NCBI GenBank assembly: GCA_949422915.1
Contig: CASPLF010000004.1
Span: 1 to 39,975, forward strand
Reading direction: 5' to 3'
DNA length: 39,975 bases
Source: an uncultured Mycoplasmatales bacterium
GTDB lineage: Bacteria > Bacillota_I > Bacilli_A > Mycoplasmatales > Mycoplasmoidaceae
This document shows positions 29,194 to 39,975 of this stretch, piece by piece. How positions within the stretch are numbered: position 1 is the first letter of the stretch; the number at the start of each line of letters is the position of its first letter. The notes beneath the pieces were generated by a model, which made no database searches, was not told the DNA's origin, and worked only from the letters and a program-made list of their open reading frames with translations. Both the position numbers and the translations under genes were made by a program.

Positions 29194-29201
29194 TTTATTG
29201 C

Positions 29202-29218
29202 AAAAAAAAAAAAAAAAA
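29202..29218 (+). repeat. Homopolymeric A tract (17 A) upstream of lipoprotein gene
   Basis: TTGC followed by 17 consecutive A. Confidence 0.95.
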
Positions 29219-29247
29219 GACAACCACAATGAGTAGAATATAAGAAT

Positions 29248-30699
29248 ATGAATAAAAAACTAATTAAAACTATTTCAAGTATCGTTTGTGGACTTGGCAT
29301 TCTAACATCAATTCCTTTTGTTACTAGCTGTAATAGTCAAAAAAAACAAGGGTTAACAGTTATGTATGATAATTCATTGACTGGTAACTTTTATCAATTA
29401 TCATTTGAGGCCGGAAATACAGCTGATGATAAAGCGGTTGGTCGATATACTCATTTATTTTCTGTAAAAGATAACCAACAAAACCCAATTAAGATTAAAA
29501 ATCTTAAATGGATCTTTTTTGATGCTTCTACAGGTAAAAAAATAAATTGATTATCAATGGAAAATGACTCTAGTGATGAATATTCAGGAAGGCTAGTTTG
29601 TAACGCTTCTGATTTACCTGTAACAATGGATAAAAAAACAAGACGTCAAATTCGTATAGAAGTACAAAACTCTTCTTATTATGGTAGACTTAATAATCCT
29701 TTAAGTTTCTCATTTACTCAACCAGAACCTGCATCAATTCTTGTTACTACAGATTTAACAAAAGTAGAAATTGATCCATTTTCACAAGGACAATACGATG
29801 GAGCATTAATTAATGCAGCAGTGTCGCCTTGACAAGCAAATCAATCAGTTAATTGAACTATAAGATCTGATGCTGCACCTGCTCCTGGTTGATTACATAT
29901 CAAACCATTTGATAATGCTTATGAACTATCATGAGATGTCGCTCGAACAGCAGATGGCACTCAAACAGCAAAAATCTCTGGTGAATACAATTATAAAATA
30001 ACAGCGACAACGACGGCTACATCAGGCAACATAGTTTCGAATGAGGTTAATTTTTCATTAAAAGTTAAAAATGGTACCATAATTCCTGAAACCTATTTAA
30101 ATGTTGATGACACTGATTGTTATGGAGTTAGAGAAGATTTAACTGATGTACAAATTAATAACCTTAAACAAGATGGATATACCGAAATCGAGGTTCCCGA
30201 TTTTGTTACAGATTTGCAATATGGTGCATTCTCATCTGCTAACAATCCATCATTTTTAACACAAAAATGGAATTTTGTTAAAAAATTATCATTTGAAACT
30301 AATTCTAAATTAACTACAATTGGTCAATTTGCTTTATGTGGCCACCAAAACGGTGATTCACAACCGTTTAATGATTATGATTTTTCAAATTGTCAAAAAT
30401 TGACAACTATTAACAATTCTTTTCATGACAATGTAATTTTTAAACTTTATCTTCCTGCATCGATAAAAAAAATCGATGATGGTGCTTTTGCAAGAACAAA
30501 AATTAATGAAATATGATTTACCGATATTCCAACTTTTTATTCATATTGAACAACACAAGCATTTGCTAATTTAATAGATGATGAAGCAAAACACTATATT
30601 TACTTTATGAATGGTCACCCCGAAGGATATGAAGAATTTATTACCTACTTACATGAAAAATGTGGATTGTCAGATAAATGACAAGCCGCTACTGACTAA
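29248..30699 (+). CDS. Surface lipoprotein with BspA-like LRR C-terminal region
   Basis: Lipobox FVTSC after signal peptide MNKKLIKTISSIVCGLGILTSIP; merged through TGA; C-terminal KLTTIGQFAL, LPASIKKIDDGAF LRR_5-type repeats. Confidence 0.85.
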
Positions 30700-31640: not shown

Positions 31641-31985
31641 ATGAGAGTAAAAGGTGGATATACAACAAGACAACGTCGTAATAAAATTAAAAAACAAGCC
31701 TCTGGTGCTTGAGGTACAAAGCATACTTCTTACAAAATTGCTCACCAAACAGTAATTGAAGCAAGTGGTTACGCTTATAGAGACAGACGTAATAAAAAAC
31801 GTGACTTTAGAAAGTTATGAATTTCTAGAATTAATGCTGGATTAAAACCGTTAGGTTATTCATACTCTAAATTCATTGCTCAATTAAACAAGAAAAACAT
31901 TAAAATCAATCGTAAAATGTTATCTGAATTAGCTGTTAATAATCCTGAAGAATTTAAAAAACTAGCTACAGAAGCAATGAAATAA
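31641..31985 (+). CDS. rplT: 50S ribosomal protein L20
   Basis: [36 protein letters not shown]...[23 protein letters not shown] (through TGA). Confidence 0.96.
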
Positions 31986-31987
31986 TT

Positions 31988-32013
31988 AAAACCCACCTAG
32001 TGGGTTTTTTTAT
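31988..32013 (+). terminator. Rho-independent terminator of infC-rpmI-rplT operon
   Basis: AAACCCAC-CTA-GTGGGTTTTTTTATTTTTT. Confidence 0.85.
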
Positions 32014-32023
32014 TTTTTGTTGC

Positions 32024-32033
32024 AAAAAAAAAA
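32024..32033 (+). repeat. Homopolymeric A tract (10 A) upstream of lipoprotein gene
   Basis: TTGTTGC-A10-CAG-TATAAA. Confidence 0.9.
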
Positions 32034-32063
32034 CAGTATAAATATTACAAATTAGGAGAAAAT

Positions 32064-32927
32064 ATGAACAAGAAGTTATTTAAAATTGCAATTTGTGGAA
32101 TACCTGTATTATTAGGATGCATTACTGCATGCAGCACTATTTCATCCATTAAGACAAACGATACTTCCCCTTCATCAAAACCACATTATTCAATGTATGA
32201 TTTCAATTCAATAGATGACTTATTGAATTTTGATGCAGTAAATTATGGTACTTTTTGTTTTGATCCAAATACTGATTACACAAACGGCAATAGAGAAGTT
32301 TATTTTACTAATCCTGAAGAATACATACCATATTTAAATAACATTACTGCTGACATGTTTAACCCAGAAAATATTGAAAAAACTAAAGATTTTTTGGCTT
32401 TTTCATTACTTGGAGATTGTTTATTTAATTTACTTTGTTTTATTTTTAATGATCACTTTATACCCGTTGAAATGTTTGTTGATTATATACATAATAATGT
32501 AAAAAGTTTTTCATTACATATAGATCAAATAACTAATCTTAAATTAGAAGAAAAAGCCGCTGATGGGCGTGATACATTTAGTTTTAGCGGAGGTTGACAA
32601 ATGAAACTTGTTGCTAAGAATTACAAAGACAATGAATATCATAAAATTCAGGCTTCTGTTACTTATACGAATAAGAAAGTATGATTTACACAATTTGGAG
32701 GTGTTTTTATAGAAGATGAAATAGATGGTGTTTTATGTCATGCTGGATTTCTAGTAGTTGAGTTGCAATCTGAATCTGATCAATTTGTAACAGTTAAAGC
32801 AAAATTGGATGATGGAGAAGAAGAAACAGACTATCGAGACCATATGCAATCCTTAGGTGTTTATCCATCTGTTTTATTTTATGAATACATAAAAGATTTA
32901 CAAATTTCTAACAACCCTAATGCATAG
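32064..32927 (+). CDS. Putative lipoprotein, unknown function
   Basis: Signal peptide MNKKLFKIAICGIPVLLGCITAC with lipobox; merged through TGA to TAG 32925-32927; AGGAGA SD. Confidence 0.78.
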
Positions 32928-38774: not shown

Positions 38775-38815
38775 TTATTTACTTCAATGTGTTTTATCAA
38801 ACAAATATAACTTTG

Positions 38816-38844
38816 TTGAAAAAAAAAAAAAAACGAGTATACTT
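38816..38844 (+). promoter_or_regulatory. Promoter with poly(A) spacer upstream of BspA-like gene
   Basis: TTGAAA (38816-38821), 17-nt spacer mostly from the 16-A tract (38819-38834), TATACT (38839-38844). Confidence 0.65.
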
Positions 38845-38865: not shown

Positions 38866-39975
38866 ATGAATAAGAAGTTAAATAAGAAATTATTGAATTT
38901 AATTGCATTATGTAGCGGATTAACTGCCACAGTTGCTCTTGGAGTAGGTGGAGTAGTTTACTCACTTAGACAAGAAAAAGATGGTGGTGATGAACCTGTT
39001 GATCAAAACGTTTTACCAGATAGTGTTTACATTATTAAAAATAATGTTTTGATGGGTTTCACTAAAGAATTTTTGGCCGATCCAACTGCTTATGACATGT
39101 GCGATACTATGGAAATTCCAGCAAGAGTAACAGAAATTGCTAGTTATGCTTTTTTTGATATTCCTCAATCTGGTGATCCAGGCTCAAGAATCCCATCATT
39201 TATTACAAAATTAACTTTTGCTGAAGGGTCTCATTGTTCTTCAATTGGTAAAGGTGCTTTTACTGAATCAGGATTAACTTCTGTAGATTTCCCTAGTACT
39301 TTACAATCAATTGGTTATGGTGCTTTTCATAATTGTTTAGCATTAACTTCTGTAAATTTATTAAATTGTACTAATCTAACAAAACTTGATGCTTTTAGCA
39401 GTTGTAAAGCGTTAACTTCTGTAGTTTTACCAAATAGTCTTACTGAAATCGGTAGGTATGCTTTTGATAGTTGTTCAAAATTAACTTCTATAAATTTTCC
39501 TAGTAGTTTACAATCAATTGGTAATGATGCTTTTTACGACTGTTCATCATTAACTTCTGTTGACTTATCAGAATGCATTAATTTAAATTCAATTTCTAAT
39601 ATGTGTTTTAGAAGATGTTCATCATTAACTTCTGTAAGTTTTCCAAGCAATTTACAAACAATTGGTGAAAATGCTTTTGATGATTGTTCAAAATTAAATA
39701 GTGTTGCATGAGATGCATGAAATGGTAGCATAGCATTACAAAGTAATACATTTAGTGGTGTTTGTCCTGATGGTGGAACAGTTACTGTCACTAACCCTAG
39801 TGGACATGATAGTGATGAATTACTTCAATATTTACTTGATAATGGTGGTTTACCACAAAGTTGAGCTAAAGATGTTGGTCCGGAATTACCAGACAGTGTT
39901 TATGATATAGATGATAATGGTGTTTTATTAGGATTTAAAGATGAATTTTTAAACGATTCAACTTCTCCTATTTAT
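38866..39975 (+). CDS. BspA-like leucine-rich-repeat surface protein, 5' part (runs off window)
   Basis: N-terminal hydrophobic segment, then LRR_5/TpLRR-type repeats (SFPSNLQTIGENAFDDCSKLTSV etc.); frame open through TGA codons to window end; a second module begins at 39886. Confidence 0.9.
39272..39710 (+). repeat. Tandem LRR-coding repeats (about 69-nt units)
   Basis: Recurrent TTAACTTCTGTA...TTTCCTAGTAGTTTACAATCAATTGGTAATGATGCTTTT blocks. Confidence 0.8.

Follow-up and report, generated by a model that had tools for sequence, protein, structure and literature searches.

The window, a stretch of 39,975 nucleotides of an uncultured Mycoplasmatales bacterium, is the entire contig C4 of a draft genome (724 kb in 56 contigs, 27% GC, TGA read as tryptophan). 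The gene at 32064 encodes a putative surface lipoprotein for which no Pfam match was found, and is preceded by rplT and the intrinsic terminator of this upstream gene (Table 1). Names of neighboring genes rest on reading their translations, without a family search in the case of rplT. At the DNA level, rplT is 98% identical in the sister genome G049. The T-rich tail of the terminator adjoins the element studied here (positions 32017–32063). Its reading as TTGTTGC-A10-CAG-TATAAA, given in a preliminary description of the window, was borne out letter by letter over 32017–32042, and the accompanying arithmetic is right: TATAAA lies 11 nt from TTGCAA and 14 nt from TTGTTG, the former distance becoming 17 nt with 16 A.

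Table 1. Features of the 32064 locus and the two sibling elements of the window.
Feature	Position	Strand	Remarks
Sibling TTGC-A17	29198..29247	+	before lipoprotein gene at 29248; absent from the preliminary description
rplT (ribosomal protein L20), upstream neighbor	31641..31985	+	ORF; named from translation and gene order
Intrinsic terminator of upstream gene	31988..32008	+	9-bp stem, then T run
TTGTTGC block	32017..32023	+	from sequence; also present in siblings and in sister species
Putative −35 TTGCAA	32020–32025	+	inside the TTGTTGC-A10 stretch
A10 homopolymer tract	32024..32033	+	short-class allele
CAG linker	32034–32036	+
−10 element TATAAA	32037–32042	+	one mismatch to TATAAT
Shine-Dalgarno AGGAG	32054–32058	+	good; from sequence
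Start codon ATG	32064	+
Putative surface lipoprotein gene	32064..32927	+	287 aa, intact; start of protein MNKKLFKIAICGIPVLLGCITAC
Sibling TTGTTG-A15-CGAG-TATACT	38813..38843	+	TTGAAA spacer 16; before LRR surface-protein gene at 38866

A genome-wide set of poly-A tracts upstream of surface-protein genes

A match to the sigma-70 consensus was rejected as sole evidence for a promoter at this locus: a scan of the window gave no more sigma-70-like sites than its shuffles, and such a match alone is therefore worthless here. Words of nine A show no excess within the window alone (18 seen versus 19.5 expected from shuffles). Counts over the whole genome, with contig 12 covered up to its final 1,136 bases, gave 125 A/T runs of eight nucleotides and only 18 of nine or more, where Markov models (orders 5 to 1) predict 105–188 of the latter. 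Thirteen runs reach at least 14 nucleotides versus 0.5–2 expected, and only five runs measure 9–11. Sixteen of the 18 runs share the layout T-rich/TTG-(C)-An-short linker-TATAWW and closely precede the start of a gene. Long homopolymers are thus avoided outside this one setting.

Three further copies with A7 or A8 (C10:1337, C2:49048, C26:67) and an interrupted sibling (C8:18615), its tract split by TTT with the spacer still at 16 nt, bring the family to about 20 loci in one genome. In its members a −35-like block and the −10 element are separated by a long A tract, mostly of 15–18 A compared to 10 here, and in many copies conservation reaches upstream of the TTG (CAAATTTGTTGC). The downstream genes code mostly for secreted or lipoprotein-like proteins starting with MNKKL; one of them, C17:11262, codes for a 540-aa membrane protein. 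Because these elements are related by descent, their common layout and −10 type are not independent observations, and neither are the counts.

The window holds three copies, at 29202 (A17), 32024 (A10) and 38819 (A15). The kinship with the 38816 element proposed in the preliminary description is confirmed by common membership of the poly-A spacer promoter family. Its guess of about 16 A for a functional spacing agrees with the family mode of A16–A17 (spacer 17–18), from which A10 is far off. At 29202–29247 the A17 tract is followed by an odd 15-nt linker (GACAACCACAATGAG) and TAGAAT, a spacing outside the family rule. The contig end (39890–39975) falls in an LRR surface-protein gene at the module VLLGFKDEFLNDSTSPIY, the same module at which contig C5 ends; shared repeat modules of this kind break the assembly and may recombine.

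Tract length within the genus

Tract lengths of the curated elements of the genus, all read from draft assemblies and with unrelated A7–A8 matches set aside, fall into two classes defined after the data were seen, A7–A11 and A14–A22, no tract having 12 or 13 A. In the long class the TTG hexamer mostly lies 16–21 nt from the −10 (mode 18, a few at 22–24); in the short class, which includes the A10 copy, it lies 8–11 nt away. Compensation of tract length by linker length, holding the spacer constant, was tried as an explanation and rejected (rho = −0.14, p = 0.44). The view that the two classes are separate lineages was also discarded: a tree built from 28 downstream regions, itself poorly resolved, shows no clear clustering, and the class switches on it about seven times, at least three of them forced by well-supported branches. 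The tracts have thus contracted or expanded repeatedly. The preliminary description saw in the A10 element the opposite state of the 38816 promoter. The two are indeed siblings, but A10 falls in the separate 7–11 class and does not lie a single step away from A15/A16.

Of 36 genomes of the genus, five (G000, G047–G050) carry the TTGTTGC block followed by at least nine A; among 298 genomes sampled across the order, the only further carriers (G078, G182) belong to a second genus, from another family. The sister genome G049 was compared almost whole. Orthologous promoters either differ little or not at all (lengths here/G049 of 17/16 at C5:249, 15/14 at C17:11262 and 16/16 at C7:8441) or are short in G049 (17/8 at 29202, 15/7 at 38819 and 9/7 at C8:19667). 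In ortholog pairs tract length thus differs between species while the flanks are similar, and differences such as 17/16 and 15/14, or 17/8 and 15/7, indicate that the tracts evolve fast. The G049 ortholog of the 38866 gene has an A7 promoter and has lost its gene start. The rplT-rpsO site carries T16-GTTTC-A7-GCGATA-TATAAT in G049 and an A22 promoter in G050; the gene is absent from this site in G047 and G011, and seemingly in G048. A search for same-species variants returned three matches in viral contigs. An A25 tract outside the TTGTTGC layout is found in G049 (C1:123522) upstream of a possible surface protein.

The ortholog of the 32064 gene in the sister species is intact and 72% identical, with a dN/dS of 0.39 between the pair. 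Since the tract is short in both species, this value suggests that the gene is useful while the tract is short and is not simply dead.

Expected state of the A10 promoter

We consider it fairly probable that 32017–32063 is one of about 20 poly-A spacer contingency promoters whose tract, contracted to A10, is parked in a state that is most likely off or weak. Replication slippage would alter the number of A between the TTG block and the −10, thereby shifting promoter strength. The long copies (A14–A22) would hover near a favorable spacing (16–18 nt at A15–A17), where slippage may displace the elements by one or two bases about the optimum. No match to a MutS gene was found in the genome, with which unstable repeats would fit. 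The A10 copy would be a contracted short-class allele, its TTG block lying 11 nt from a non-consensus −10. Tracts of 7–11 A are likely much more stable than one of 16 A; because a short tract slips little and 5–7 A would have to be regained, the locus looks parked and not like a fast switch.

The preliminary description judged the element too short for a standard promoter. Its 11 nt do fail the 16–18 nt spacer of standard sigma-70 promoters; no such rule is apparent here, where ordinary promoters lack a −35 signal. None was detected in 103 of them aligned on the −10 (under 0.06 bit of information from −20 to −30), a TTG at 16–18 nt occurs in 4 of 101, and TATAAT is enriched 10–30 nt before starts in this genome. 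The promoters of Mycoplasma pneumoniae are likewise without a strong −35 (PMC5573727). The spacing rules of Escherichia coli can therefore not be assumed. The exact TATAAT is found in 0 of 14 long-class promoters (two genomes) versus 42 of 101 ordinary ones (Fisher p = 0.002, for a comparison defined after the data were seen); its absence from all 14 suggests that long-class promoters may rely to a greater extent on contacts upstream. In its non-consensus −10 (TATAAA) the A10 promoter resembles this class. Together with a spacing outside the family range and the interrupted sibling that holds a 16-nt spacer, this points toward an OFF state, while the short promoter in two species in spite of purifying selection on the gene points against it, being as compatible with a working promoter as with a parked one. 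On these sequence features we find it plausible, by a small balance of probability, that the A10 promoter is off or weak. Read-through from the rplT operon past the modest terminator could also feed the 32064 transcript at any tract length.

The lack of a −35 in ordinary promoters, here and in M. pneumoniae, lends some weight to an alternative in which the short-class promoters (A7–A11) are steady, driven by the −10 and ON, the short tract being locked and only the long class switching. It would account for the several short-class genes that are intact, for the conservation of the 32064 gene behind a short promoter in two species and for the perfect TATAAT of some short-class promoters of G049. 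The −10 of the A10 promoter is, however, TATAAA, and fragments or lost starts accompany short-class promoters at C10:1300, C2:49087, G049 C5:26698, C5:39887 and the G049 ortholog of the 38866 gene. The excess of broken genes in the short class over the long class (about 6 of 13 versus 3–4 of 14) is not significant, a hand count devised after the data were seen and suggestive only. We hold a steady ON state of the short class to be rather unlikely. The tract might instead position an upstream protein-binding or bent-DNA element against the core promoter and not act as a −35/−10 spacer; such positioning has been proposed in other mycoplasmas for repeats that lie upstream of the core. The conserved block upstream of the TTG, the T16 homopolymer upstream of the TATAAT core in the G049 ortholog, and the range of long-class spacers (16 to 24), too wide for a simple −35/−10 rule, speak for such a role; it appears improbable, as the TTG block abuts the tract directly and occupies the place of a −35 for A15–A17. 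Hardly credible is an origin of the A10 tract as chance A-rich sequence or as an assembly error. Nothing in an assembly is less reliable than the length of a homopolymer, and this is a draft in 56 contigs, but the element belongs to a family, the enrichment goes far past chance and the layout recurs in the sister species. Moreover, an error of 5–6 bases in an A tract exceeds the usual slippage errors of short reads.

Extending the contingency-promoter interpretation to the whole family, one may envisage a two-tier system in which long tracts (A14–A22) switch quickly while stable short ones (A7–A11), entered by large contractions, are parked or constitutive, TTGTTGC-poly-A providing length-sensitive control in a genome without −35 elsewhere. 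We put this forward as a speculation that is unlikely to hold.

Relation to described switching systems

The nearest described system is vlp of Mycoplasma (Mesomycoplasma) hyorhinis in which, as far as the work of Citti and Wise (1995) is related in PMC10502178, transcription is reported to go ON or OFF along with indels in the poly-A tract of each promoter. Both systems place an A tract in the promoters of a surface-lipoprotein family. The one described here differs in belonging to another, uncultured genus, in its unrelated lipoproteins, many of them with BspA-type LRR repeats, and in its dispersal over about 20 scattered loci. Judged from its sequences, the family combines a vlp-type layout, multiple paralogous loci and changes of length between lineages with flanks kept. 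In vmm of Mycoplasma mycoides SC the length of a repeat in the spacer of a lipoprotein promoter sets the ON/OFF state (Persson et al. 2002, as cited in PMC10502178), the repeat being a dinucleotide in place of poly-A. Variable GAA repeats also lie upstream of the vlhA lipoprotein family of Mycoplasma gallisepticum, at about −40 and thus upstream of the core promoter (PMC6258824), whereas here the tract is found between the TTG block and the −10. The same core (TTGTTGC-A16..20-G-TATAAT) precedes surface-protein genes in G078, of a Mesomycoplasma-type genus, and in Mycoplasma sp. ‘Moose RK’ (locus L120); these elements differ in their long leader (100–170 nt) and belong to another family of the order. 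By eye, the downstream proteins of G078, G182 and ‘Moose RK’ mostly resemble P97/P102-type adhesins.

The poly-A promoter switch of vlp type would thereby be extended to an uncultured genus, where it would comprise about 20 surface-protein genes spread over the genome. It poses the question of how spacer length might govern promoter activity where ordinary promoters of the same organism lack a visible −35 box. Tract lengths are readable in existing metagenome reads, so that the distribution of ON and OFF states in the population would be measurable for each locus without culture.

Other homopolymers were noted in the course of this work. Poly-G tracts (G8 and G11) occupy signal-peptide codons of two paralogous lipoproteins of G000 (C3:23699, L021, and C2:7362, L017); the sister genome retains the G8, and the C3 gene also carries an A18 promoter tract. 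These poly-G tracts look like a second contingency mechanism, acting on the reading frame. In the uncultured alphaproteobacterium RGIG8504 from water deer caecum, TTTTTTGTTGC-A12/13-TGRCTTAGTATAGATAG or a close variant is present at five loci (L106, L114, L119, L121, L122), at least two of which precede open frames of secreted look.
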